Shown one piece after another: positions 1,797 through 22,630 of a stretch of DNA of 64,000 nt. Position 1 is the stretch's first letter, and each line of letters opens with the position of its first letter. The stretch lies in assembly GCF_006352025.1 (NCBI RefSeq), contig NZ_CP040936.1:2480001-2544000 (forward strand), in the 5' to 3' direction. The notes under the pieces are model-generated. The model was not told the DNA's origin, made no database searches, and worked only from the letters and a program-made list of their open reading frames with translations. A program made the translations under genes and the position numbers. Source of the stretch: Hymenobacter sp. DG01. Lineage in GTDB: Bacteria; Bacteroidota; Bacteroidia; Cytophagales; Hymenobacteraceae.

Positions 1797-3095
1797 ATGT
1801 TCCCAAAGCTACTTTCCGGCCTGGCCCTGAGCGGGGCCCTGCTGCTGGCTCCCGCCGCCTGGGCCCAGAAAACCTACCTGCACTGCGGCCGCCTGCTGGA
1901 CATGCGCCAGGACCGCGCCCAAACCGAAGTAACCGTGGTAGTTGAGCAAGGCCGCATTGTGGCGGTAGAGCGCGGCTACACTACCCCGGCCACCGCCCGA
2001 GACCGGGTAGTGGACCTGAAAAATCGCACCGTTCTGCCCGGCCTCATCGACTGCCACGTGCATCTGGAGGGCGAAACCAGCAAGGACAACTACCTGAAGG
2101 AATTCACCCAGAACCCCGCCGATGTGGCCTTCAGCTCCCTGGAGTACGCCCGCAAAACCCTACAGGCCGGCTTCACTACCGTCCGCGACCTGGGCGGCTC
2201 GGGGGTTAACCTGGCCCTGCGCAATGCCATCAACCGGGGGCAGGTAACGGGGCCGCGCATTTTCACGGCGGGCAAGGCCATTTCGGGCACCGGTGGCCAC
2301 ATGGACCCCACCAACGGCTACCGCCTGGACCTGATGGGCATGCCCGGCCCGGCTGAGGGGGTAGCCAACGGCCCCGACCAAGGCCGGCAGGCCGTACGCG
2401 AGCAGTACAAGCGCGGCGCCGACCTGATTAAGATTGCCAGTACCGGCGGTGTGCTTAGCGTGGCCAAAGACGGCTCGGCCCCGCAGTTCACGGAAGAGGA
2501 AATCAGGGCGGTGGTGCAAACGGCCCGCGACCTGGGTCTGAACGTAGCCTGCCACGCCCACGGCGCCGAGGGCATGAAGCGGGCCATCCGGGCGGGCGTG
2601 ACCAGCATTGAGCATGGCACCCTGATGGACGACGAAACCATTCAGCTCATGAAGAAATACGGCACCTGGTACGTGCCCACCATCACGGCCGGCAAATCCG
2701 TAGCCGATTCGGCGGCCAAAAACCCTACCTACTACCCCCCGCTAGTGACGCCTAAGGCCCTGGCCATCGGCCCCAAGCTGCAGGGTACGTTCGGGCGGGC
2801 GTATAAGGCCGGGGTGAAAATTGCGTTTGGCACCGATGCCTCCGTATTCCGGCACGGCGTAAATGCCCTGGAGTTCCGCTACATGGTAGAGGCCGGCATG
2901 CCGCCCCTGCAGGCATTGCGGGCCGCCACCGTAAACGCAGCCGAGCTGCTGGGCCAAACCCCAAACCTGGGCACCGTGGAGGCCGGCAAGCTGGCCGACC
3001 TAGTGGCTGTGGAGGGCGACCCGGTGCAGGATATCAACGCCATGCAGCGCGTCCGCTTTGTGATGAAACAGGGGGTAGTGTACCGGCAGGACTAG
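1797..3095 (+). CDS. Secreted metal-dependent amidohydrolase (imidazolonepropionase/prolidase-like)
   Basis: A 432-residue protein with a signal peptide (residues 1-24, ending AAWAQ) and an amidohydrolase-superfamily TIM barrel. The metal-binding HVH is at residues 87-89, followed by a candidate bridging Lys in DLIKIASTGG, His residues in ACHAHG and SIEHGT, and the catalytic Asp in FGTDAS. The ending with ADLVAVEGDP is typical of the group annotated as Xaa-Pro dipeptidase or imidazolonepropionase-like. The exact substrate, a dipeptide or a cyclic amide, cannot be fixed. The start is ATG 1797, which begins the signal peptide. A hairpin terminator follows. Confidence 0.9.
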   Translation: MFPKLLSGLALSGALLLAPAAWAQKTYLHCGRLLDMRQDRAQTEVTVVVEQGRIVAVERGYTTPATARDRVVDLKNRTVLPGLIDCHVHLEGETSKDNYLKEFTQNPADVAFSSLEYARKTLQAGFTTVRDLGGSGVNLALRNAINRGQVTGPRIFTAGKAISGTGGHMDPTNGYRLDLMGMPGPAEGVANGPDQGRQAVREQYKRGADLIKIASTGGVLSVAKDGSAPQFTEEEIRAVVQTARDLGLNVACHAHGAEGMKRAIRAGVTSIEHGTLMDDETIQLMKKYGTWYVPTITAGKSVADSAAKNPTYYPPLVTPKALAIGPKLQGTFGRAYKAGVKIAFGTDASVFRHGVNALEFRYMVEAGMPPLQALRAATVNAAELLGQTPNLGTVEAGKLADLVAVEGDPVQDINAMQRVRFVMKQGVVYRQD

Positions 3096-3149
3096 GGCAA
3101 TGGGGCTCTCAACCGGGTAGCCCTGCCAACCTCGACTATAACATTTGGG

Positions 3150-3184
3150 CGGCGTATTGGCGTAAAGCCGATACGCCGTTTTTT
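3150..3184 (+). terminator. Hairpin terminator after the amidohydrolase gene
   Basis: CGGCGTAT pairs with ATACGCCG, with a short inner GGC/GCC stem, followed by TTTTTT. It sits between the stop at 3095 and the next start at 3193, so the PncC-like gene probably needs its own promoter or readthrough. Confidence 0.75.
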
Positions 3185-3192
3185 ATTTTCTG

Positions 3193-3720
3193 ATGAAGCC
3201 CAACGACCTGAACACCCTCGCGCAGAAGTTTTTGCAGTATAAACTTACCCTGGCTTTTGCCGAAAGCTGCACGGCTGGCCTGCTGGCCTCCGAGTTTGTA
3301 AAAGCCTTCGGCAGCAGCGAGGTGCTGCTGGGCTCTGTGGTAACCTACCACCCCATTGCCAAACAGCGCCTGCTGGGGGTGAAAAAGGAAACCCTGGCCC
3401 TGTACACCGCCGAAAGCCAGCAGGTGACCAACGAAATGGTAATGGGCTTGCACAAGCACCTGCCTACCGCCGACATTTGCGTGGCCGTTACGGGCCTGTG
3501 CGGGGGCGGAGCCTCGGAATCGGAGGAGAAGCCGGTGGGTACCATGTACTTCACCGTTCTGCATCAGAAACGTGCCTACGAGCTCCGCGAGCAGTTCACG
3601 GGCGACTGTGACAAGGTGCGCCTGCTGGCCGTAGACTACATTTTCAACTACCTCAACACCCTACTCGATGAGTACGCCGAGCAGCACGCCGGCTCCGCCA
3701 TTGAGGAGAAAATGAAGTGA
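3193..3720 (+). CDS. pncC: CinA C-terminal domain protein, nicotinamide-nucleotide amidase-like
   Basis: A 175-residue stand-alone CinA_C domain. The family hydrolyses nicotinamide mononucleotide to nicotinate mononucleotide and ammonia, recycling pyridine nucleotides. Visible motifs are AESCTAGLLAS near the N-terminus with the conserved Ser and Thr, then a Ser/Thr-rich GSVVTYHPIAKQRLLGV segment, and VAVTGLCGGG where other members have VAVTGIAGPGG. The Cys-Gly in place of the usual Ala-Gly-Pro is a small deviation. The N-terminal molybdopterin-binding half of full-length CinA is absent. The function is inferred from family. Confidence 0.85.
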   Translation: MKPNDLNTLAQKFLQYKLTLAFAESCTAGLLASEFVKAFGSSEVLLGSVVTYHPIAKQRLLGVKKETLALYTAESQQVTNEMVMGLHKHLPTADICVAVTGLCGGGASESEEKPVGTMYFTVLHQKRAYELREQFTGDCDKVRLLAVDYIFNYLNTLLDEYAEQHAGSAIEEKMK

Positions 3721-3737
3721 TTTTGGTGATGACAGGC

Positions 3738-3900
3738 GTCATGGCGAGGAGGCACGACGAAGCTATCCGTCCTGACCACCGCCCTACCGCCCTCATGATG
3801 TGACAAGCCCTTGACGCTCGCACAGTCGTCAGGAGGCTTGGGTGTTTAGCAGGATTATTATAGAAGACAGGAAGGATGGCGTCGGTGCCCTCGCCATGAC
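3738..3900. repeat. Palindromic intergenic repeat R1, copy a
   Basis: A 163-bp element with perfect 11-bp terminal inverted repeats (GTCATGGCGAG at 3738-3748, CTCGCCATGAC at 3890-3900). It contains an inner hairpin built on AAGCCCTTGACG and CGTCAGGAGGCTT. It shares ends, the inner AAGCCCTT hairpin and the TGTTTAGCAGG segment with copy b at 32895-33050. It encodes no protein and resembles a small MITE-like or REP-like unit. Both copies lie between converging genes. Confidence 0.85.
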
Positions 3901-3927
3901 ACTTTACTCAGTCACTCACTCGCTCAT

Positions 3928-4959
3928 TCACCTTTTCCCTCTTCCCAGGGTCAGCAGCAGGTTCAGGCGCACTACGTCGCCCATGGAGCGGCAGGCGCTG
4001 AATTGCCCGGTGCGGTGGTGCTGGTTGAGCTGGGTTTTTAGTTGGGTTACTTTTTCCGGGGGCGACACTTCATCCTGGCGCAGGCAGTCGATGAGGTCTT
4101 TGAGGCGGTAGCGCTCCGAGCGGGCCCGCCGGGCCATCAGGGTGCGCTCCTCGGTTTGGTACTGCCGGATGGTTTCAGGCTCCAGCAGCTGGCTGCACAA
4201 CATCACCACGGCCCGGTTATCCTTGAAAAACTGGGGTAGATACATGTTTTTCTTGCCCTCATAGCACTGCTGATCGAAGTCGATGGCGCGTACCCGGTAC
4301 TGCTCATCCTCGAAGTCGGGCGTTACGTCAATAACGTAATTGTAGGCCCTCATATCGCCGAGCAAGCGGGCAAAGCACCGCTCGTTAAACTTCACGAATT
4401 CCTTGGCTATGCGCACCTGGTTAAGGTGGGGGCGTTGCAGATGGTCGCGGATGAAGTCGTCGCCGGGGATGCCAGCAATGTGCTCCTCAATCAGCGTATC
4501 GCCGTGCACCAGATAGTTCATGCTGTTGGGCGAAAGCAGATGTTCCAGCTCCAGGCCGTACACCCGCGAGGCATCGGCCCGCTTCACGTAGAAGTAGTCG
4601 TAGTTATCGTTGAGTTGATTGACGATGCGCACCCGAAACGGGTTGGAGTTGCCGAAGCGGCAGTAGTCGATGCGGTCAGCAATGAGGTGGTCGGTAAAGG
4701 AAAGGTCGCCGGCGGTTTTCAGCAGGGCGTACACCTGGGCCAGCCCCTCGCTCAGCTCGCGCAGGGCCTGCGGCTCGTAGAATACCGTTTCCCAGAGGGT
4801 GTCGCGCCCTTTGCGGTCCAGCAGCGGAAAGGCCCCGCTGATGCGCGTCAGTTCCAGGTAGGTAACCGGCAACTGGCTTTCCCGGTCGTAGTCGCGCAGG
4901 TAGTGGCGCAGCTTGTCCTGGATGGGGTAAGTAATTTTCTTTTTGGAGATGAGTGTCAC
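3928..4959 (-). CDS. Uncharacterised protein with possible protein-kinase-like fold
   Basis: A 343-residue cytoplasmic protein with no signal peptide or membrane span. I do not recognise a named family. The order of several motifs resembles a kinase fold. Lys126 in YFYVKRAD looks like the ATP-anchoring lysine, Glu138/Glu140 follow, EEHIAGIPG (158-166) looks like a hinge, Asp202 and Asn207 have the D-x4-N spacing of a catalytic loop, and IDFDQ (226-230) resembles the DFG metal site. The C-terminal 70 residues are charged and helical. The kinase reading is inference from motif order and spacing only. The gene is convergent with pncC across repeat R1. Confidence 0.6.
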   Translation of the reverse strand: MTLISKKKITYPIQDKLRHYLRDYDRESQLPVTYLELTRISGAFPLLDRKGRDTLWETVFYEPQALRELSEGLAQVYALLKTAGDLSFTDHLIADRIDYCRFGNSNPFRVRIVNQLNDNYDYFYVKRADASRVYGLELEHLLSPNSMNYLVHGDTLIEEHIAGIPGDDFIRDHLQRPHLNQVRIAKEFVKFNERCFARLLGDMRAYNYVIDVTPDFEDEQYRVRAIDFDQQCYEGKKNMYLPQFFKDNRAVVMLCSQLLEPETIRQYQTEERTLMARRARSERYRLKDLIDCLRQDEVSPPEKVTQLKTQLNQHHRTGQFSACRSMGDVVRLNLLLTLGRGKR

Positions 4960-11633: not shown

Positions 11634-13124
11634 ATGCCTTTGTACAACCGCCGCCCCGAGCCGGGGCTATCTTCGGCCCAATCACCATCGTTGCCGCCGG
11701 CGGCCTTGCCGCTTAGCGAGCTGCTGGCCCGGGTGCGCCAAACGCTGAGCGAGCGGTTCGCGGACTCCTATTGGGTAGTGGCCGAAATTGCCGACCTCAC
11801 CCTACCCCGCTTCGATGGGGCGCATTGCTACCTCACTCTCACCGACCAGCACACCACGGCCCGCGGGGCCCAGCTCAAGGCCCAGGCCCGCGCCACCATC
11901 TGGAGTCAGCGTTTTCAGCAGCTGAGCGCCGTGTTCGAAGAGCAAACCGGCCTTACCCTGCGCATTGGTTTGAAGGTGATGCTGCGGGTACAGGTAAAGT
12001 TTCATGAGCAGTTCGGCCTGAGCCTCGATGTGCTGGCCTTGGACCCAACTTATACCGTCGGCGACCTGGCCCGGCTGCGCCTGGAAACCCTGCGGAAGCT
12101 GCAGGCCCAGGATCTGCTGGAACGGCAGAAGCGCCTGACCTTGCCCATTGGGGTGCAGCGGGTGGCCGTTATTTCGTCGCCGACGGCTGCGGGCTGGCAG
12201 GATTTCGTGCAGCAGCTCCAGGAGACCCCCTACGATTTCTCCCTGACGCTTTTCCCCGCTCTCATGCAGGGCGACGATTCGCCGGCCAGCATCCGGGCGG
12301 CTCTGGATGCCATCCGCAGCCGCCGCGACGAATACGATGCGGTGGTCATCATCCGGGGCGGGGGCTCCAAAACCGATTTGCTGGCCTTCGACGACTACGG
12401 CCTAGCCGCCGCCATCGGCTCCTTTCCCCTACCCGTGCTAACCGGCATCGGCCACGAGCGGGACGAAGCCGTGGTGGACCTGACCGCACACACCGCCCTC
12501 AAGACGCCGACAGCAGTAGCCGCCTTCCTGATTGAGCGCCTCGCCCGCCTGGAAGCGGCGCTGGAGGGCTACGGCCTGCGCATTCGGGAGCTGGCCCAGG
12601 AGCGGGTGCAGGCCGAAGGCACCCGCCTTAACCGCCTGCTCCGCCACGCCCACCTGGCAGCGCACAACCAGCTCCAGGACCAGCGCGAGGCCCTGCACCA
12701 GCGCATCCGGCAGGCCGCCGCTACCCCCCGCGCCCAGCTGCGGCAGCAGGAACATCAGCTGATTCGGCGCCGTCACCAGCTGCACCGGGCCGCCCGCACT
12801 ACCCTGCGCCACCAGGAGCAGGGCTTGCGCAAGCGGGGCCGTATTCTAGCCCGGCACTTCCGCCGCCTGCACCGCCGCCGCTGCGAGCAGCTCCTGCGCC
12901 GGCAGCACCAGCTGCAGCTGGCCGCTACCCGCCTGCTGCACCGCGCCGAGCTGCGCCTAGCCCGGCTCAATGCCCAGCCGGCCAGCGGCACCATCCGCCT
13001 GCTGACGCCCAAGGGTCAGCCCTTTACGGGGCCCCTGCGTGCGGGGCAGCAGGTGCTGCTGCGCCTCCCCGACGGGGTAGTACCGGCCCGCATTGGGGGT
13101 CAGCTTCCCCTCCTTCTTTCCTAA
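11634..13124 (+). CDS. xseA: Exodeoxyribonuclease VII large subunit
   Basis: A 496-residue catalytic subunit of exonuclease VII, which degrades single-stranded DNA from both ends to oligonucleotides. It has an N-terminal OB-fold (LPLSELLARVRQTLSERF, YWVVAEIADL), then the conserved catalytic region with AVISSPTAAGWQDF, VVIIRGGGSKTDL and TGIGHERDEAVVDL. A long Arg/Gln/His-rich coiled-coil (about residues 300-450) binds the small subunits, and a C-terminal beta segment LTPKGQPFTGPLRAGQQVLLRLPDG follows. xseB begins 12 bases after the stop, so the two are co-transcribed. Confidence 0.96.
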   Translation: MPLYNRRPEPGLSSAQSPSLPPAALPLSELLARVRQTLSERFADSYWVVAEIADLTLPRFDGAHCYLTLTDQHTTARGAQLKAQARATIWSQRFQQLSAVFEEQTGLTLRIGLKVMLRVQVKFHEQFGLSLDVLALDPTYTVGDLARLRLETLRKLQAQDLLERQKRLTLPIGVQRVAVISSPTAAGWQDFVQQLQETPYDFSLTLFPALMQGDDSPASIRAALDAIRSRRDEYDAVVIIRGGGSKTDLLAFDDYGLAAAIGSFPLPVLTGIGHERDEAVVDLTAHTALKTPTAVAAFLIERLARLEAALEGYGLRIRELAQERVQAEGTRLNRLLRHAHLAAHNQLQDQREALHQRIRQAAATPRAQLRQQEHQLIRRRHQLHRAARTTLRHQEQGLRKRGRILARHFRRLHRRRCEQLLRRQHQLQLAATRLLHRAELRLARLNAQPASGTIRLLTPKGQPFTGPLRAGQQVLLRLPDGVVPARIGGQLPLLLS

Positions 13125-13136
13125 GCAATTCCTATT

Positions 13137-13352
13137 ATGTCGCCCCAAAACCTTACCTACCGCCAAGCCATCGAAGAGCTGGAAACCATTCTGCGCGCCC
13201 TGGAAACCGATGCCGTGGATGTGGACGACCTCACGGCCCGGGTGCAGCGCTCGGCCGAGCTGATTCGCCTGTGCAAACAGAAGCTGCGCTCCGCCGAGTC
13301 GGCCATTGACCAGGTATTTGAAAATCTGGAGGAAGAGGATGAGGAAGCATAA
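13137..13352 (+). CDS. xseB: Exodeoxyribonuclease VII small subunit
   Basis: A 71-residue helical protein with the family pattern YRQAIEELETILRALE, DVDDLTARVQRSAELI and CKQKLRSAESAIDQVFENLEE. Several copies bind the coiled-coil of XseA and are needed for activity. It lies directly downstream of xseA in the same operon and ends in an acidic tail. Confidence 0.95.
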   Translation: MSPQNLTYRQAIEELETILRALETDAVDVDDLTARVQRSAELIRLCKQKLRSAESAIDQVFENLEEEDEEA

Positions 13353-13438: not shown

Positions 13439-13786
13439 ATGACCAACAACGACGCCTTGAGCCAAGCCAGCGCCTGGACCCGCAATTATCGCAATCAGAA
13501 CTTCGGTGGTATTAAGGGCCACTGCCTTCCCGCTGAAACACTGCAAGCAATACTCAGCCAAGAGGGTTGTGTTGGCGTGCGGGCTTACTACGGACTCACC
13601 GACGACAATACGCCTAAGCTGATTCTGGTAGGTTACGATACTAATGATAATGATATCTTATCAAACACAATCAGTGCTGCCCGCAGCTCAGTAGAAGCCG
13701 AATCGGTTGCGGGAACCAGCCAAGTTGCTATTGATCTGCCTCCCTGCCCTCCCTGCTGCAGCGTAGAAAATCCCATCAATAGCTAA
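13439..13786 (+). CDS. Small Cys-tail protein, unknown family, copy A of a repeated domain
   Basis: A 115-residue protein without signal peptide. The domain starts with ASAWTRNYRN (11-19), then a helix ending in QEGC (Cys44), VGVRAYYGL, and LILVGYDTNDNDIL (61-74). After a Ser/Ala linker the chain ends with CPPCC at 103-107. The same pattern recurs in the genes at 14665 and 15342. I know of no named function. Cys44 plus the CPPCC tail suggest disulfide or metal chemistry, which is inference. The membrane protein starts 7 bases after its stop codon, so they form an operon. Confidence 0.75.
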   Translation: MTNNDALSQASAWTRNYRNQNFGGIKGHCLPAETLQAILSQEGCVGVRAYYGLTDDNTPKLILVGYDTNDNDILSNTISAARSSVEAESVAGTSQVAIDLPPCPPCCSVENPINS

Positions 13787-13792
13787 CCTCTA

Positions 13793-14479
13793 ATGTCTGA
13801 CTGGTTCATTACATTTTGTAAATCTCTAGACTTACTAGTGTATTGGGCAATGATAATACCTTTTGCCGTAGCGTTTCGGTACCGTTCATCATTAACAGGG
13901 GGAATGCGCACCCTTCGCTGGGTCCCCCTATTTTTGTTTTTGATGTATTGCTTATTGCAAATTTCGATTAAAATATGGCATTATGGCCTCATCATTAATC
14001 ACATCAATACAGTAGGAGAAACTCTTTTATATATCAAAGTATATCACGACGAATTCAATAGCAAGAAAACTAAGCGTTGGATTCGCATTCTAACAGTATG
14101 TTTTCTAATATTTGCTGCTGTAGATTCTTTCTGGATAGAGGGTTTTGATAGTATAAATTCTTATACAAACCTTGTTGAAAGTATTATAGTAATAAGCTTA
14201 GGGATTTTGTTTTTTGAACACATTATATCAAAGAGCAACCACCAGCAGATTCAAAAAATACCTATGTTCATTGCCACTGTTGGCATATTATTATACCTCT
14301 CTGGAACAGTGCTTTTGTATTTAGTAACGAATAATTTTATAGCATCAAATGACGAATACAGCACACGACTCATGTATCTATTAAATTCTATTTTACTTCT
14401 CTTGTTAGCTATTATTTTTTTGAGAGCTTTCTTTCTGGCCCGGAAGAAGACCCCAGCCGCCCCGGTTTACGCCGGCTAA
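13793..14479 (+). CDS. Integral membrane protein of about seven spans, unknown function
   Basis: A 228-residue hydrophobic protein. Probable membrane segments lie near residues 10-29, 43-60, 64-82, 98-115, 126-144, 157-177 and 190-213, with a short basic C-terminus. The motif INHINTVGETLLYIKVY (about 68-84) has polar residues inside a membrane region. The gene is strikingly AT-rich, with many ATA and TTA codons, against GC-rich neighbours such as xseA. It follows the Cys-tail gene by 6 bases. The topology resembles sensory membrane modules found near Bacteroidota histidine kinases, but no catalytic domain is attached. A receptor role is inference. Confidence 0.75.
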   Translation: MSDWFITFCKSLDLLVYWAMIIPFAVAFRYRSSLTGGMRTLRWVPLFLFLMYCLLQISIKIWHYGLIINHINTVGETLLYIKVYHDEFNSKKTKRWIRILTVCFLIFAAVDSFWIEGFDSINSYTNLVESIIVISLGILFFEHIISKSNHQQIQKIPMFIATVGILLYLSGTVLLYLVTNNFIASNDEYSTRLMYLLNSILLLLLAIIFLRAFFLARKKTPAAPVYAG

Positions 14480-14664
14480 CGGCCCTACTTCTGGCTCTAA
14501 CCCCAAAATGTGCCTCAGCTATATTGTGTAAAATACAAATACGAAATATGCACTCAATTCTAAAGTAAACTACTCGAATTCTCAAGTGCTCATATAGCTG
14601 TTTATTTCTCTAAAATTTTCGATACACCTTTCAACACATAAAAAATAATCACAAACTGTTCTTC

Positions 14665-15180
14665 ATGAGACATAAATCATTACTACTCTTGTTAAGCGGC
14701 CTTACTATTGGCGCTTTGTGTGGCGTAGGTTGCCAAAAGACTGAATCAGTTGCCCCTATTGCTGATTTAGCATCTAAACAAGACTTTAATACCCAAGCGG
14801 GTCATTTCTTTCCTAGCGTAGCAGAAGCTGCTAATTGGACTCGCAACTACCGCAACAAGTATCCCCGCCTTTCTTCAGATGGACATACTAACAAAGTTTT
14901 ATACTCCACTTATTTTGGCAGTAGCTTCCTGCGTCAGATAATGGACCAGCCCGATTGTGTAGGCATACGTTTCTATAAAGCTATAGATCCAAAGGGAGAC
15001 GAGCACATCCTAGCGGTAGGAACTGATGCTAATGGGAATGATCTAGTGCTACGCAGGAAAGTAAATACTACTAATAACACCAGTAGCATTAAAGGTACAG
15101 AGGACACTGAAGTAATGGTAGGAAACTGGGGACATCGCTGCCCTGACTACTGCAGCACCGGAGAGCTATCTGGCAACTAA
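14665..15180 (+). CDS. Lipoprotein with the same Cys-tail domain, copy B
   Basis: A 171-residue protein with a lipoprotein signal (residues 1-23, lipobox GVGC, Cys23). The mature part repeats the family pattern: AANWTRNYRN (56-63), a helix ending in QPDC (Cys98), VGIRFYKAID, and ILAVGTDANGNDLVL (115-129). It ends with CPDYC (159-163), equivalent to CPPCC in copy A. Unlike copy A it is exported, so family members act in different compartments or A is exported by another route. It has AT-rich codon use. Function unknown. Confidence 0.75.
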   Translation: MRHKSLLLLLSGLTIGALCGVGCQKTESVAPIADLASKQDFNTQAGHFFPSVAEAANWTRNYRNKYPRLSSDGHTNKVLYSTYFGSSFLRQIMDQPDCVGIRFYKAIDPKGDEHILAVGTDANGNDLVLRRKVNTTNNTSSIKGTEDTEVMVGNWGHRCPDYCSTGELSGN

Positions 15181-15341
15181 TTTAGTTTAGCAGACGCACC
15201 TCCGTGAACGTAGTATTGGAGATAGAATAATATATGTTTTGCCTCTTTCATTTAATAAGTTTATCTCACAACACTACCATATCATACATATGACTATATT
15301 TAGCGATTCACTTTCATACTATTAAACATTTCTTACAGATC

Positions 15342-16058
15342 ATGAAGTTGTTACGTAAGCGTTTCTCCACCGAACCAGCAGAAAGAATCTCATCTCTGGA
15401 ACAGGCACGCACTCTAATTCAAGAGTTTCAGCTAGCCAATCCTAGTGCAGTACAGTCTCATTTCATTGGTCGTGAGAAACTAGAGGCACTTTTAGCGCAG
15501 GATAACTGCAAAGGAATTCGATTGTATTTCGGTCTGGATGATGCCGAACACCTAAATTTGCTGGCTGTAGGCACTAATAGTCTGCTCAATGATATGTTGC
15601 GGGGTCCGGTCGCTGTTAGCACGCATCCTAACCTACCATTTAGCGAAGCAACTGTAGCCCACTTCACGGGCAAGGAAGGTCGGTTCATCAACAAACCATT
15701 AGCGGCTAATTGGACAGCTAGTTATCGGCGTAGCGTAGCTGGCCGAGATGCTTTTTTTGCCATACTGTTTCCTGTCCATTTCCTTCAGCAGTTCTTTAGC
15801 CAAGCAGATTGCCAAGGCATCAGTTTCCACTATGCGCTCGACTCGCAAGCTCGGATGACACTAATACCAATGGGCGTTACCTCAGAAGGAGCTAATCTGT
15901 TCTTCAGCTATGATTCTGATACACACCAACCTTGTCCACCCTGCTGCAGCTTGGAAGACTGGTGGAGCATTCTTGGCTTTTCGCTTAACCAAGATGCGCC
16001 ACGGAGTCAAAAACTCCGGGTTGCTACTGCTGTTTGCCGAGAAAACCGCTTTGCGTAA
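15342..16058 (+). CDS. Two-domain Cys-tail protein, copies C1 and C2
   Basis: A 238-residue protein with two tandem copies of the domain. C1 (about 20-86) contains QDNC (Cys56), KGIRLYFGLDD and LLAVGTNSLLNDML. C2 (about 119-191) contains AANWTASYRR, QADC (Cys157), QGISFHYALD and LIPMGVTSEGANLF. CPPCC follows at 198-202, then a Trp-rich stretch and a basic tail ending CRENRFA. No signal peptide is visible. Internal duplication and the match to neighbouring genes argue that this is a real, locally amplified family. Function unknown. Confidence 0.75.
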   Translation: MKLLRKRFSTEPAERISSLEQARTLIQEFQLANPSAVQSHFIGREKLEALLAQDNCKGIRLYFGLDDAEHLNLLAVGTNSLLNDMLRGPVAVSTHPNLPFSEATVAHFTGKEGRFINKPLAANWTASYRRSVAGRDAFFAILFPVHFLQQFFSQADCQGISFHYALDSQARMTLIPMGVTSEGANLFFSYDSDTHQPCPPCCSLEDWWSILGFSLNQDAPRSQKLRVATAVCRENRFA

Positions 16059-16096
16059 CACTGCACCAATATTTCGCCTTTAAACTTCTCTATTTC

Positions 16097-16131
16097 AAAG
16101 CCCTATCTATGATATAGATAGGGCTTTGTTT
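16097..16131 (+). terminator. Terminator ending the Cys-domain cluster
   Basis: A perfect 14-bp stem AAAGCCCTATCTAT / ATAGATAGGGCTTT with a three-base loop, followed by GTTTAG. It lies 38 bases after the last gene of the cluster and separates it from the histidine kinase. Confidence 0.8.
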
Positions 16132-16331
16132 AGTATGGTACAATCGCACATAATATATCAGGCTGCACTAATGTTACGGATGATCCTTCTTCTCACCGTT
16201 CACATAACCTAGGGCACACGCTATCAAAGTGGCTGTTGTTTTAGCTTAGGTATTGCCCGCACATTTAGCTGGATAAATCCCCGTATCTTGGTCCATTGAA
16301 TATTCTTTATCGGCTGCTGCATCTTTCCTAA

Positions 16332-17144
16332 ATGCCTGACGCGCTTATTCCGCTAGTTCTCGTGACGCCCATTCTGCTGCTGCTGGCGCTGGGCATCGTG
16401 GGCTTCGTGGTGCGCTACCAGCGGCGCCTGATTCAGCAGCAGCTGGAAATGCAGGAGTTGCACGAGGCCGCCCAGCAACAGGCCCTGGAAGCGGCCCTGC
16501 TGGCTCAGGAAGAAGAGCGCCGCCGCATTGCCGGCGACCTGCACGATGGCGTGGGCACTACCCTGGCTATTGTGAAGCTCCACCTGAACACGCTGGACCA
16601 GCCGGAGCTAACCCAGGAGGCATCCTCCCTGCTAGACCAGGCCATTAATGAGGTGCGCCGCATCTCCCGCAATCTGCTACCCGCCGCCCTGCAGAAATTT
16701 GGGCTGCCCTTTGCCCTGGAGGCCCTGGCCCGCACGGTTCCCGCCGATGGCCCTACCCGGGTGGAAGTAGAGCAACGGGGCCAACCGCGCCGCCTCGACC
16801 CTAAGTATGAGCTGATTGTGTACCGGGTAGTGCAGGAACTCTTGGGCAATGGCCTGCGCCACGCCTACGCGGCCCATATTCACATCGTCGTGGAATTTGG
16901 AGCCGACCAGCTCTCCCTGCAGTATTCTGATGATGGCGTGGGCTTCGACCCTACCCTGCCAGACCACCCCCCGGCTCCTGGAACCCGTACCGGCCTGGGC
17001 TTAACCAACTTACGCAGCCGCGTTGGCGTATTACGCGGAACGTTGCGCCACGAATCGGCTCCGGGCGAAGGAACCCGGGTTTGGATTTGCTTACCCGTTC
17101 CGTACCTTTCTACAATTCTACCTGCTCCCTCTTCCGTCCTATGA
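16332..17144 (+). CDS. NarL-family sensor histidine kinase (HisKA_3 type)
   Basis: A 270-residue kinase. One membrane span near residues 5-27 is followed by a coiled-coil rich in Gln. The dimerisation and phosphoacceptor helix has RRRIAGDLHDGVGTTLA, with His71 as the phosphorylation site, typical of HisKA_3. The ATPase domain follows, with ELLGNGLRHAYA (N-box), DDGVGFD and GLGLTNLRSRVG. The protein has almost no extracellular part, so it probably senses through the membrane, inside the cell, or through a partner. Its stop overlaps the start of the response regulator (ATGA, 17141-17144), so the pair is translationally coupled. A weak -7-like TATCTTGG lies at 16284-16291. Confidence 0.93.
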   Translation: MPDALIPLVLVTPILLLLALGIVGFVVRYQRRLIQQQLEMQELHEAAQQQALEAALLAQEEERRRIAGDLHDGVGTTLAIVKLHLNTLDQPELTQEASSLLDQAINEVRRISRNLLPAALQKFGLPFALEALARTVPADGPTRVEVEQRGQPRRLDPKYELIVYRVVQELLGNGLRHAYAAHIHIVVEFGADQLSLQYSDDGVGFDPTLPDHPPAPGTRTGLGLTNLRSRVGVLRGTLRHESAPGEGTRVWICLPVPYLSTILPAPSSVL

Positions 17145-17566
17145 GTTCTACCACCATTCGCCTAGCCGTAGTTGATGACCATATCCTGTTCCGCAAGGGG
17201 TTGCGGGCGCTCATCAGCGGCTTTCCCGGTATGGAAGTGCTGTTTGAGGCCGGCGACGGTCAGGAGCTTCTGGAGCGGCTAGACCAGGGTATTATTCCGG
17301 ATGTAGTGCTGATGGACCTGCAGATGCCGGTGCTGGATGGCCTACAAACCGTGCGCCTGCTACGGGCCCAGTACCCGCAGGTGCGCTCCATTATTATTTC
17401 CATGCACGATGAGCCGGAGCTGATTGACTCCCTGCGGGCCGAGGGCGCCCACGGCTACCTCCTGAAAAACGCCAGCCCGGAGGAAGTGCGGGGGGCCATT
17501 CAGAACGTGGTGGATAACCGCCCTAACCCCGATAGCTCCCGCTTTTTGCTGACTACTACCTTTTAA
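17141..17566 (+). CDS. Receiver-only response regulator
   Basis: A 141-residue protein consisting of one receiver domain: acidic pair Asp12-Asp13, phosphoacceptor Asp59 in VVLMDLQMP, and the conserved Lys in YLLKNASPEE. The neighbouring kinase is of the class that normally pairs with NarL/LuxR regulators having a DNA-binding helix-turn-helix of about 60 residues after the receiver. Here the frame ends with SSRFLLTTTF and the next 75 bases hold only a terminator, so no output domain follows. It may signal by protein contact or have lost its output domain. Start ATG 17141 overlaps the kinase stop. Confidence 0.92.
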   Translation: MSSTTIRLAVVDDHILFRKGLRALISGFPGMEVLFEAGDGQELLERLDQGIIPDVVLMDLQMPVLDGLQTVRLLRAQYPQVRSIIISMHDEPELIDSLRAEGAHGYLLKNASPEEVRGAIQNVVDNRPNPDSSRFLLTTTF

Positions 17567-18261: not shown

Positions 18262-19443
18262 ATGCAAACGCAGCAAGAAACTGAACAAGAAGTAACTGAC
18301 AGCCGCTCCGGTGGCGCTGGTCGTCGCATCATCTGGATGCTGGTGGCCCTGGCCGTAGTAGGAGCCCTGGCTTTCATCAAGATAAAGTACTTTCCCTCCC
18401 AGGGTGCCGAGGGCAAAGGTGGCGGTGGAGGCGGCAAGGGTGCCGCTGCCGGTGGTGGCAAGGGAGCCCCCGGAGGGGCTGGTGGCAAAGGCGGAGCCGG
18501 CGGCGGCCAGAAGCTGCCCGTGCAGGTGTACGTAGTAAAAGCTACCAACCTGGCCGACGAAGTGGCCGCTACCGGCTCTATTCTGGCCGAAGAGTCGGTG
18601 GTACTGAAAAGCGAAATTTCGGGCAAGATTACGAGCCTCAACATCCGGGAGGGCCAGCCGGTGCGCAAGGGCCAGCTGCTGCTGACCATCAACGCCGACG
18701 AGATTCAGGCCCAGCTGCGCAAGCAGGAGTACAACATCAAGCTTTTCCGCGACCAGGAGCGCCGCCAGCGTACCCTGCTCGACAAAGAATATATCAGCGC
18801 CCAGGAGTACGAGCAGGCCAATAACCAGCTGCTCACGGCCCAGGCCGACCTGCAAGCCCTGCGTGCTTCCCTGACCAAAGCCTATATCCGGGCACCTTTT
18901 GATGGCGTGCTAGGGTTAAGCACCATTACGGTAGGTACGTACGTGAGCCCGGGGGCCGAAATAACGACCCTTTCACGGGTGAAGCCGGTGAAAATCAGCT
19001 TCACGGTGCCCAGCCGCTTCTCAAACCTGGTACGCACCGGCGACCCCATTACCATCACCGACGAAGCTTCGAACAAGAAGTACGAAGCCAAAGTCTATGC
19101 CCTTGATCCGCAGATTGACCCCGTGAGCCGCACCCAAACCGTGCGCGCCCGCTATGCCAATACCAGTAATGAGCTGCGCCCCGGTGCCTTCGTGAAGGTG
19201 AATCTGCAGCTGGGCCAAACCTCGGAAGCCCTGCAGGTGCCCACGGAAGCCGTAATTCCGGAAGCTGCCGGCTACAGCGTGTACACGGTGCAGAACGGTA
19301 AAATGGTCCCGAAAAAGGTAAAAATCGGGGTCCGCTCTGCCCGCCTGATTCAGATTACCGAGGGCATTGCCGTGGGCGACTCGGTAATCCGCACCGGCAT
19401 TTTGCAGGTTAAACCCGGTGATGCTGTGCGCGTTACTAAGTAA
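18262..19443 (+). CDS. RND efflux periplasmic adaptor (AcrA/HlyD family)
   Basis: A 393-residue membrane fusion protein linking the inner-membrane pump at 19547 with the outer-membrane channel at 22687. It has an N-terminal cytoplasmic segment, one membrane anchor (about 24-43), an unusual Gly/Lys/Ala-rich linker (about 50-85), a lipoyl-like half motif (GKITSLNIREGQPVRKGQ), an alpha-hairpin (about 150-200), the second lipoyl half (AYIRAPFDGVLG) and beta-barrel domains. It is the first gene of a three-gene operon. The long Gly-rich linker is not typical of AcrA, which instead is a lipoprotein. Confidence 0.93.
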   Translation: MQTQQETEQEVTDSRSGGAGRRIIWMLVALAVVGALAFIKIKYFPSQGAEGKGGGGGGKGAAAGGGKGAPGGAGGKGGAGGGQKLPVQVYVVKATNLADEVAATGSILAEESVVLKSEISGKITSLNIREGQPVRKGQLLLTINADEIQAQLRKQEYNIKLFRDQERRQRTLLDKEYISAQEYEQANNQLLTAQADLQALRASLTKAYIRAPFDGVLGLSTITVGTYVSPGAEITTLSRVKPVKISFTVPSRFSNLVRTGDPITITDEASNKKYEAKVYALDPQIDPVSRTQTVRARYANTSNELRPGAFVKVNLQLGQTSEALQVPTEAVIPEAAGYSVYTVQNGKMVPKKVKIGVRSARLIQITEGIAVGDSVIRTGILQVKPGDAVRVTK

Positions 19444-19444
19444 G

Positions 19445-19540
19445 ATTTCTCGCTGAGGTTCGCTGAGGTTTTCGCTGAGGTTCGCGGAGGCCGTACACTG
19501 CAAACCTCAGCGAAAACCTCAGCGAACCTCAGCGAGAAAT
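19445..19540. repeat. Perfect 38-bp inverted repeat between adaptor and pump genes
   Basis: The arms at 19445-19482 and 19503-19540 match 38 of 38 bases as reverse complements, separated by 20 bases. Each arm is itself built from three near-repeats of CGCTGAGGTT. It would form a very stable mRNA hairpin that ends 6 bases before the pump's ATG at 19547. It lies entirely between two genes of an operon and has no T-run, so it is not a simple terminator. Confidence 0.95.
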
Positions 19541-19546
19541 AACACT

Positions 19547-22500
19547 ATGAGCTTATCCTCCACCAGTATCAACCGGCCGGTGCTCGCCATTGTGATGAGC
19601 CTGGTCATCGTGATTTTCGGGGTGATTGGGTTTCGCTACCTCAGCGTCCGGGAGTACCCGAGCGTTGACCCACCCATCATCACGGTATCGGCCTCCTACA
19701 CCGGCGCCTCCGCCGACGTAATGCAGGGCCAGGTGACTGAGCCCCTGGAAGAAGCCCTCAATGGTATTCAGGGCATCAAGAACCTGACCTCGAACTCCCG
19801 CGACGGCCGCACCCAGATTACGGTAGAGTTTGACCTCGACGCCGACCTGGAAACGGCAGCTAACGACGTGCGCGATAAGGTGTCGGGGGCCCAGGGCCGC
19901 CTACCCCGCGACATCGACCCACCCGTGGTGAGCAAGGCCAACGCTGACTCCCAGCCTATTGTGATGACCTACCTCAGCTCCAGCCAGCGCAATTTGCTGG
20001 AGCTGACCGATTACGCCAACAACACCCTGAAAGAGCGCCTCCAAACCATCCCAGGCGTGTCGGAAGTGCGGGTGTACGGGGAGCGGAAGTATTCCATGCG
20101 CCTGTGGCTGGACCCCGTGAAGCTCTCGGCCCTGGGCGTGAGCCCCGTGGATGTGCAGGCCGCCCTGACCCGCGAAAACGTGGAGCTGCCCAGCGGCTCG
20201 GTGCAGGGCGAAGCTACTCAGCTGACCCTACGTACCATGGGTCGTCTGTCGTCGGTAGAAGACTTCAACAATCTGATTATCCGGCAGGATGAATCAGCCC
20301 TGGTGCGGCTCTCCGATATCGGCTACGCCGAGCTCTATCCCGAGAACGACCAAACCATCTTCAAGGTGAATGGCGTGCCGATGGTTGGCTTGGCCGTTAT
20401 TCCGCAGCCGGGCTCCAACCAGATTGACATTGCCGACGAGTTCAACCAACGCATTGCCCTCTATGGCAAAGACCTGCCCAAGGACCTGGTGCTAAAGCCG
20501 GGCTTCGATAACTCAGTGTTTATCCGCAAGTCCATTAACGAGGTAGAGCACACCATCATTGAGGCCTTCGTGCTGGTGGTAATTATCATCTTCCTGTTCC
20601 TGCGCGACTGGCGTTCTACCATCATTCCGGTGGTAGCCATTCCGGTGTCACTCGTCGGTATCTTCTTCGTGATGTACCTGATGAATTTCTCCATCAATGT
20701 GCTCACCCTGCTGGCCGTAGTGCTGGCTATTGGTCTGGTAGTGGACGACGCCATTGTGGTACTGGAGAATATCTATTCTCGCATTGAGGGCGGCGAGGAC
20801 CCAAAAACGGCAGCTATTAAAGGCTCCGAGGAAATTCTGATGGCCGTTGTCAGCACGACTATCGTACTGGCGGCGGTGTTCCTACCCGTAGTGTTCCTGA
20901 CCGGTATTACCGGGCGCCTGTTCCGCGAGTTTGGCATTGTGGTGGCTGGTTCGGTGCTGATTTCGGCCTTCGTGTCCCTTACCCTGACGCCCATGATGTG
21001 CTCGGTTCTGCTCAAGCGCGAGGAAACGCACAACTGGTTTTACCGCAAAACTGAGCCCTTCTTCGAGAAGATGATTGGCGGTTACCAGAGCAGCCTGGAA
21101 AGCTTCCTGCGCAACCGCTGGATGGCTTGGCTAATGGTAGTTGGCACGGGGGTAGGCATCTGGTTTTTCATGAAAACCATTCCGTCCGAGCTGGCCCCCA
21201 TTGAAGACCGAAGCCGGGTGAACATCAACGCCACGGGTCCGGAAGGTGCTTCGTTTGAGTTCATGGACGCCTACATGGCCCAGCTCACCCGACTGGCGAT
21301 GGACTCTACCGGTGAGCAGAATCTGAGCAGTGTGTTTGCCGTAACCTCGCCTGGTTTCGGGGGCGGCTCTAACTCCGGCACAGCCCGTGTACTCCTGCTC
21401 GATGCTGACAACCGGAAGATAGGCCAGCAGCAAATATCAGATAAGCTGAGCGCCGGCGTAAAGAAACTAACCGCCGCTCGCACCTCCGTGTCGCAGGACC
21501 AGAGTATTGGTGGCGGCGGTGGTGGCCTACCTGTGCAGTTTGTTATCCAGACCCAGGATTTCGACAAGCTGCGCACCGCCGTTCCGAAGTTCTTGGATGC
21601 CGCCCGCCAAGACCCCACTTTCCAGTTCGTGGACGTGAACCTGAAGTTCAACAAGCCCGAGCTGCGCGTGAACATCGACCGGGAGAAAGCACAGAGCCTG
21701 GGCGTGTCGGTGCAGAGCATCAGCCAGACGCTGCAGTCGGGCCTGAGCGGACAGCGCTACGGCTACTTTATCCGGGAAGGCAAGCAGTACCAGATTATCG
21801 GGCAGGTAGCGCGCGAAGACCGCAGCCAGCCCCTGGATGTGCGCCTGCTGTCGGTGAAGAACGCCAACGGGGAGTTGATTCAGCTGGATAACGTCATTCG
21901 ACTGGAGGAAAGCAGCACCCCGCCCCAGCTCTACCGCTTCAACCGCTACAACTCGGCTACCTTCTCGGCCTCCCTGGCCCCGGGCCGCACCCTCGGCGAC
22001 GGTATTGCTGCCATGCAGGCCATTGCCGACAAAAACCTCGACGATACCTTCTCTACCGAACTCGCCGGTGCCTCCCGCGACTTCCAGGAAAGCTCTTCCT
22101 CGCTGGTATTTGCTTTCGGCCTGGCCCTGGTACTGATTTACCTGGTGCTGGCGGCGCAGTTCGAAAGCTTCCGCGACCCGGTGATTATCATGGTGACGGT
22201 ACCGCTGGCGTTGTCGGGGGCCCTACTCAGCCTGTGGTATTTCAACCAGACCCTCAACCTGTTTTCCCAGATCGGCATTATTATGCTGGTGGGCCTGGTA
22301 ACGAAAAACGGTATCCTCATCGTGGAATTCGCTAACCAGCAGGTAGAAAACGGCAAAGACTACATGACCGGCCTGATTGAAGGCGCTACCGCTCGTTTCC
22401 GCCCCATCCTGATGACCTCTTTGTGCGCCATCTTGGGTATTCTGCCCATTGCGGTGGCTACCGGAGCGGGCGCGCTTAGCCGTCGGGCCATGGGCATTGG

Positions 22501-22630
22501 GGTAGTAGGTGGCCTGTTCTTTGCCACGGCGCTTACCCTGTACGTGGTGCCGGTGATGTACTCATACTTCGCCACGGCCAAAAAGCACAAGCAGCCTGAA
22601 GCCGCCGAGCGAGAGGCCGTAGCCGCTTAA
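19547..22630 (+). CDS. RND multidrug efflux pump, HAE1 family
   Basis: A 1027-residue inner-membrane proton antiporter of the AcrB type. It begins with SINRPVLAIVMSLVIVIFG (TM1), has two large periplasmic loops (about 35-330 and 550-850) and a second six-helix bundle. TM4 carries the proton-relay Asp pair in GLVVDDAIVVLENI, typical of the HAE1 group instead of the metal pumps. The later VTKNGILIVEFANQ motif in the second half is also typical. Likely substrates are hydrophobic drugs or detergents, as a family inference. Its translation start lies just after a strong hairpin. Confidence 0.96.
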   Translation: MSLSSTSINRPVLAIVMSLVIVIFGVIGFRYLSVREYPSVDPPIITVSASYTGASADVMQGQVTEPLEEALNGIQGIKNLTSNSRDGRTQITVEFDLDADLETAANDVRDKVSGAQGRLPRDIDPPVVSKANADSQPIVMTYLSSSQRNLLELTDYANNTLKERLQTIPGVSEVRVYGERKYSMRLWLDPVKLSALGVSPVDVQAALTRENVELPSGSVQGEATQLTLRTMGRLSSVEDFNNLIIRQDESALVRLSDIGYAELYPENDQTIFKVNGVPMVGLAVIPQPGSNQIDIADEFNQRIALYGKDLPKDLVLKPGFDNSVFIRKSINEVEHTIIEAFVLVVIIIFLFLRDWRSTIIPVVAIPVSLVGIFFVMYLMNFSINVLTLLAVVLAIGLVVDDAIVVLENIYSRIEGGEDPKTAAIKGSEEILMAVVSTTIVLAAVFLPVVFLTGITGRLFREFGIVVAGSVLISAFVSLTLTPMMCSVLLKREETHNWFYRKTEPFFEKMIGGYQSSLESFLRNRWMAWLMVVGTGVGIWFFMKTIPSELAPIEDRSRVNINATGPEGASFEFMDAYMAQLTRLAMDSTGEQNLSSVFAVTSPGFGGGSNSGTARVLLLDADNRKIGQQQISDKLSAGVKKLTAARTSVSQDQSIGGGGGGLPVQFVIQTQDFDKLRTAVPKFLDAARQDPTFQFVDVNLKFNKPELRVNIDREKAQSLGVSVQSISQTLQSGLSGQRYGYFIREGKQYQIIGQVAREDRSQPLDVRLLSVKNANGELIQLDNVIRLEESSTPPQLYRFNRYNSATFSASLAPGRTLGDGIAAMQAIADKNLDDTFSTELAGASRDFQESSSSLVFAFGLALVLIYLVLAAQFESFRDPVIIMVTVPLALSGALLSLWYFNQTLNLFSQIGIIMLVGLVTKNGILIVEFANQQVENGKDYMTGLIEGATARFRPILMTSLCAILGILPIAVATGAGALSRRAMGIGVVGGLFFATALTLYVVPVMYSYFATAKKHKQPEAAEREAVAA

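Follow-up and report, generated by a model that had tools for sequence, protein, structure and literature searches.

In the UhpABC system of enterobacteria, a kinase of the HisKA_3 type is steered by a separate polytopic membrane sensor, UhpC, which is a 12-helix transporter homologue. VraTSR couples a kinase with little sensor of its own to an accessory membrane protein, and in the Sae system a complex of SaeP and SaeQ, the latter a four-helix protein of a Gram-positive lineage, acts on the kinase SaeS. In ComQXPA and agr, polymorphic signal and receptor genes are swapped above a conserved core; there the receptor lies within the kinase, and the locus also encodes an enzyme for processing. 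Published accounts describe the SaePQRS operon of Staphylococcus aureus as encoding the lipoprotein SaeP, the membrane protein SaeQ, the kinase SaeS and the regulator SaeR (PMC3748130), LiaFSR as a sensor-poor kinase accompanied by an accessory protein of the membrane (PMC3543457), and SRII-HtrII as a separate seven-transmembrane-helix (7TM) receptor that meets a membrane protein feeding a two-component pathway (PMC12917780, PMC2857822). We analysed a locus of related plan in Hymenobacter sp. DG01 (contig NZ_CP040936.1, positions 2,480,001 to 2,544,000; this whole stretch of 64,000 nucleotides is the window, and coordinates count from its first base). Three of its genes carry four copies of a cysteine-containing domain (Cys), and a 7TM membrane protein (TM), a histidine kinase (HK) and a response regulator (RR) are encoded beside them. 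We consider it probable, if short of firm, that the Cys and TM genes make up the leading half of a signalling unit with four parts, namely a CPxxC-tailed Cys protein, a 7TM receptor, a kinase without a sensor of its own and a response regulator. The genes are as follows.

13439-13786, + strand: Cys1, 115 amino acids (aa), one domain with a C-terminal CPPCC tail
13793-14479, + strand: TM, 228 aa, 7-helix membrane protein, 6 bases 3′ of Cys1
14665-15180, + strand: Cys2, 171 aa, domain copy with the tail CPDYC
15342-16058, + strand: Cys3, 238 aa, two domain copies
16332-17144, + strand: HK, histidine kinase with one transmembrane helix, HisKA_3 and HATPase_c
17141-17566, + strand: RR, response regulator with a receiver domain only
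11634-13352: xseA-xseB, the upstream flank of the Cys and TM genes

The Cys and TM genes occupy the interval between xseA-xseB and HK. HK and RR, directly 3′, are part of one unit with them and, although they lie outside the coordinates of a preliminary description of this DNA, are the key to the meaning of the locus. The start of RR, picked by eye, overlaps the stop of HK by 4 bases. Four domain copies in three genes had been described, the first gene 6 bases from a multi-span membrane protein; open reading frames and gap were found as placed. CPPCC and CPDYC tails were likewise confirmed, but in Cys3 the CPPCC follows the second copy and is not at the extreme C-terminus, as had been claimed, since about 40 residues lie beyond it. 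Cys2 has a hydrophobic N-terminus ending GVGC and is therefore a probable lipoprotein, in agreement with the preliminary description. Cys1 has no export signal, and an in-frame stop lies immediately 5′ of its ATG. The reported AT-richness was also recovered, GC content being 0.35-0.49 across 13500-16249 against about 0.56-0.73 in the surroundings. However, these genes are characteristically low in GC (the TM gene is below the kinase gene in 79/79 Hymenobacter loci), and the low value is thus by itself no sign of recent transfer.

Evidence for a unit comes from other genomes. A kinase search of 120 Hymenobacter genomes gave 92 positives at E <= 1e-60, one each, and all 92 regions (the window included) were compared. 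Cys and TM genes were present between xseB and the kinase in 81 of these, arranged as a single pair (39), as Cys-TM-Cys-TM (24), as a single Cys ahead of two or three TM (15), as Cys-TM-Cys-TM-TM (2) or, in the window alone, with the order Cys1-TM-Cys2-Cys3-HK-RR. Here the second TM is absent and the two-domain Cys3 occupies the position of the relatives' second TM. Cys2 is similar to the second Cys of the relatives L054 and L055 (49 and 51%), and the 120 genomes hold only one full-length relative of Cys3 (E <= 1e-8), which in genome G066 (L130) stands beside a lipoprotein copy with no TM within the 9 kb fetched. Neither Cys nor TM was found in 10 of the 92 loci, where a gap of 131-693 bases is left and HK-RR are retained; the remaining locus (L081) is cut by a contig end. 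Not one of the 91 uncut loci contained Cys only or TM only. Two of the empty loci (L115, L123) retain an open remnant that, judged by eye, is the final part of a TM gene; L122, one of the 81, has both of its genes disrupted. With many of the empty loci akin to one another, the independent losses number fewer than ten. One genome carries a unit elsewhere, without xseAB (L129). The genome that contains the window carries another unit of the same plan (L166, C1:2182500-2190500, at 2499-4897) comprising a lipoprotein Cys, a 7TM protein and a kinase with HisKA and HATPase_c.

The arrangement extends across the phylum. Among 28 Bacteroidota loci, 27 of them outside the genus, a TM lay 3′ of Cys on the same strand in every case, and the short stretches fetched included a recognisable kinase in 24. 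The TM profile had been refitted on these loci, and the Hymenobacter-only profile labels at least 26 of them, missing L146 and L152. A separate scan of Cys places outside xse loci revealed a TM match directly downstream in 54/56, and of the other two one (L168) has a TM on closer inspection and one is at a contig end. The 63 loci obtained from named genomes belong to Flavobacteriales, Cytophagales, Sphingobacteriales, Chitinophaga and other groups; four lie in Hymenobacter and one in a metagenome-assembled genome (MAG) of Zixiibacteriota. A Cys frame was present in 62, of which 6 are cut; the 56 uncut loci continue with TM in 55, then HK in 51, then RR in 46. Two of the four kinase misses and three of the five regulator misses are at contig ends, and the other two of the latter (L215, L221) do carry an RR on inspection. 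Real exceptions are L231, without TM, L216, without a kinase, and L242, without a kinase on the same strand. Median intergenic gaps were 9, -22 and -4 bases, the use of longest possible starts exaggerating the overlap. The tie to the membrane protein, suggested in the preliminary description from a single locus, is thereby upheld as near-constant co-occurrence. L216, a Flavobacteriales MAG, has Cys-TM-TM and then genes with LuxR-like starts; L242 is a Cys-TM pair on a contig labelled Candidatus Zixiibacteriota, outside Bacteroidota.

The TM profile matched 80/395 genomes of the phylum (E <= 1e-6). TM places without a Cys match were typed in 51 cases and fetched in 17, with HK next in 15, a weak Cys match in 6 and none in 11. 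TM-HK is therefore the wider core, with Cys as its usual small partner. At two places (L169:4426-5169, L173:2314-3039) TM-HK-RR is preceded by a different protein, some 245 aa long, of which only the end (CPP) is like the Cys tail, and in L183 the TM is followed by a protein and regulator that by eye are of LytS/LytTR rather than HisKA_3 type. The literature searched held no description of a Cys-TM-HK-RR unit. The unit is real, phylum-wide and unnamed as far as searched, and as a signalling switch it is apparently undescribed.

Cys and TM are also matched to one another. Distances were correlated across 24 two-pair loci with kinase distance removed; kinship among these loci is corrected for by HK distance alone. 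The partial correlations were 0.77 for Cys1-TM1 and 0.83 for Cys2-TM2 (both p 0.0005), those of the non-cognate pairs 0.09 (Cys1-TM2) and 0.08 (Cys2-TM1). Mere linkage fails as an explanation, since TM1 and Cys2 also adjoin and yet are uncorrelated. Across all 82 loci the Cys1-TM1 value is 0.35, and HK is tracked by TM1 (0.71) but not by Cys1 (-0.13). For HK, XseA, TM1 and Cys1, trees were built from 25 loci. The window groups with L053-L057 in the HK (98/95) and XseA (95) trees, and with L036, L037, L040 and others in those of TM1 and Cys1. Approximately unbiased tests rejected an L053-L057 placement of the window for both TM1 (p 4.6e-53) and Cys1 (p 3e-4). Identities of the window to L054 are 96% for XseA, 99% for HK and 96% for RR, but 50% for Cys1 and 34% for TM1; to L040 they are 85% for XseA, 83% for HK, 65% for Cys1 and 63% for TM1. 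A further set (L059, L060, L061) forms one group in the TM1 and Cys1 trees and not in that of HK, where the placements are only moderately supported. From these discordant trees and identities, entire Cys-TM cassettes appear to have been swapped over a kinase that stays constant. Constraint within alleles is similar for the three genes. Sequence comparison therefore establishes that the genes make up one tight unit across Bacteroidota, that the presence, absence and replacement of Cys go with those of TM, that each Cys co-varies with its own TM, that HK and RR persist under a changing pair and that the unit is under constraint; if Cys is taken as a candidate signal, a polymorphic receptor appears to be exchanged along with its signal gene.

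A small protein and a membrane protein swapped as matched pairs would also be expected of a polymorphic toxin (Cys) with its immunity protein (TM). We regard this as highly improbable, given that the pair is constantly coupled to HK and RR throughout the phylum, the ten loci that lack both genes and still keep HK-RR, the absence of any toxin family match in Pfam and NCBIfam, and a single PADLOC model matched by only 2/108 members at E ~0.006 or worse.

As to the Cys domain itself, a search with Cys1 alone recovered the other three copies at E 1.5e-8, 1.1e-6 and 0.08. A profile of 38 family members (A3), which includes Cys1 and Cys2 and excludes Cys3, recovered both Cys3 copies (E 2.1e-19 and 1.7e-15); judged by these matches, the four copies are related beyond chance. 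The same profile matched 406 proteins at E <= 1e-3, and was matched in 45/395 genomes of the phylum. Neither Pfam (best E 0.03 for 38 members), nor NCBIfam (best E 0.0076 for 108 members), nor the PDB sequences gave a convincing match, in keeping with the earlier statement that no named function is known. The Cys domain is a real family, undescribed as far as searched. In 108 aligned members Arg48 is invariant, and Tyr50 (99%), Pro104 (98%) and Asp72 (95%) are close to it, with the cysteines lower (Cys103 89%, Cys107 85%, Cys44 79%). In the AlphaFold2 (AF2) model of Cys1 (pLDDT 86, pTM 0.71), two strands accompany two main helices; given the pLDDT of ~91-92 at residues 101-115, the tail seems to belong to the fold. 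A structural search with this model gave no fold match, and no redox fold among the matches; thioredoxin-fold chains are absent from these match lists, which cannot exclude that fold, and PF00085 was matched, weakly, by 1/38 members (E 0.15).

The cysteines invite a reading in which Cys is an intracellular redox, metal or heme co-sensor, or a brake on TM-HK, with a cofactor held by the CPxxC tail. All three cysteines occur in 76/108 members and the tail pair only in 13/108; C103 and C107 are retained or lost jointly (phi 0.71), and because of this a disulfide or metal role is possible in cysteine-bearing members. Most Cys proteins also lack an export signal. However, at least one tail cysteine is absent in 19/108 members, so that the CxxC is not invariant, whilst the proline stays at 98%, and several forms in the same position have a lipobox or membrane anchor. 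We thus judge the co-sensor unlikely, and the earlier suggestion of a disulfide-active family is not supported, given these incomplete tails and the lack of a matched redox fold.

The same description had raised a surface or secreted location as a possibility, which fits about a tenth of the family. By a crude rule applied to 218 Cys proteins (among them L045, a false match, and L134 and L167, doubtful ones), 198 have no export signal, and the other 20 divide equally between a lipobox and a hydrophobic N-terminus (10 each). Several lineages have exported forms, in some cases immediately 5′ of TM-HK; lipoprotein or anchored forms include those of L143, L145, L147, L166, L244, L245 and L247. Such forms, and cognate pairs swapped above a conserved kinase, would suit a bolder special form of the receptor reading, namely cell-to-cell signalling in which kin release Cys, or a fragment of its tail, as a signal and the cassettes are signal types (pherotypes). 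We think this possible though rather doubtful, because of the large majority without an export signal, a tail that is predicted to lie within the fold and that follows each domain in two-domain proteins, and a TM alignment with no conserved catalytic set fitting a processing enzyme; nor do the loci contain a further constant gene. We would be similarly hesitant to propose GPCR-like (G protein-coupled receptor-like) bacterial communication, whereby a folded Cys would be the kin-specific signal for its own 7TM allele of rhodopsin/GPCR fold driving a histidine kinase; that Bacteroidota swap signal-receptor cassettes above a constant kinase, as pherotypes, belongs to the same tentative proposal. 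Solitary Cys copies without TM are found in Hymenobacter (L073, L075, L131, L132, L134, L135, L167), several with lipoprotein-like starts. That of L167, in the window's genome (C1:3648500-3656500, at 3532-3975), has a hydrophobic N-terminus and no adjoining TM or kinase, and a similar copy is present in L134.

TM has seven helices in its AF2 model and, by charge, an N-out/C-in topology. The predicted fold resembles those of GPCRs and rhodopsins, the structural matches listed being receptors and light-driven rhodopsins, and by this likeness of predicted fold only TM is taken as a stand-alone 7TM protein of receptor-like fold. No retinal lysine was apparent, Lys reaching at most 6% at any helix-7 position of 81 TM members; these gave no Bac_rhodopsin match, and microbial rhodopsin, GPCR and 7TMR-DISM models were absent among the 20 Pfam families listed for them (E <= 0.1). 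The more conserved parts of TM include P157, F159, G164, Y168, G171 and T172 in helix 6. Alternatively, TM may be a transporter or exporter, of Cys or of a small molecule, on which the kinase reports: the two genes are adjoining and paired, and transporters can also be kinase sensors, as UhpC is. The listed matches speak for a receptor, even if some of the rhodopsins are pumps, and a seven-helix protein with no ATPase partner in the unit makes transport very unlikely. No positive evidence emerged for the earlier suggestion that the membrane protein exports Cys; the other half of that suggestion, that it senses Cys, is favoured.

No sensor domain was found in the window's HK, which has a single transmembrane helix. 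A HisKA_3 and HATPase_c kinase beside a receiver regulator, as in two-component systems, is present in the window and likewise in L193. The RR of L193 has a LuxR-type DNA-binding domain, which those of the window and of Pontibacter (L217), consisting of a receiver only, lack. Hymenobacter regulators have a median of 13 residues after the receiver (n=92, one with 95), and a tail of at least 60 residues occurs in 47/50 RR genes of the named-genome loci, some of these genes being outside the unit. Since the Hymenobacter regulators lack a DNA-binding domain, their output probably runs through protein contacts. Beyond RR, two adjoining genes of the window (18262-22630) resemble, by eye, the periplasmic and inner-membrane parts of a resistance-nodulation-division (RND) efflux pump.

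Under the preferred reading of a receptor-led unit, the 7TM protein would sense something with or through Cys, which as its dedicated partner (bound ligand, co-receptor or adaptor) would help to set specificity. Conserved parts of TM, helix 6 included, may relay its state by contact to the transmembrane helix of HK, a contact modelled on sensory rhodopsins and their transducers, and HK would then set the phosphorylation of RR. In the window, the Cys1-TM pair would have replaced the lineage's own first pair, with the second TM lost and Cys3 in its place. Two unannotated protein families would thus define a four-part switch in many Bacteroidota lineages, in which a stand-alone 7TM receptor-like protein pairs with a kinase lacking its own sensor. 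If true, this would assign a function to hundreds of proteins at present labelled hypothetical, and would give bacteria a receptor-kinase arrangement comparable to sensory rhodopsin and transducer that is not light-driven. The exchanged cassettes would then be a natural experiment on specificity, with nearly the same kinase under different receptor pairs.

In plan the unit corresponds to a two-component system whose putative membrane receptor is a protein of its own, nearest to sensory rhodopsin with its transducer, LiaFSR and SaePQRS. It shares with SRII-HtrII a separate 7TM protein of similar predicted fold, but has no retinal lysine or Bac_rhodopsin match, its partner is the histidine kinase itself and it includes an extra small protein. 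LiaFSR and VraTSR likewise have a sensor-poor kinase with an accessory membrane protein, LiaF and VraT being likened by description only; neither system is known to include a Cys-like small protein. The likeness to SaePQRS, again by description and not by sequence, is that of a lipoprotein or small protein, membrane protein, kinase and regulator, the differences being a membrane protein of seven helices and a small protein mostly without a lipoprotein signal. UhpC has 12 helices and is not known to have a small partner protein, whereas here seven helices are accompanied by Cys. Finally, although the kinase here is constant and no processing enzyme was seen in the loci, the unit resembles ComQXPA and agr in that polymorphic genes, for candidate signal and receptor, appear to be swapped while the signalling core beneath them is conserved.
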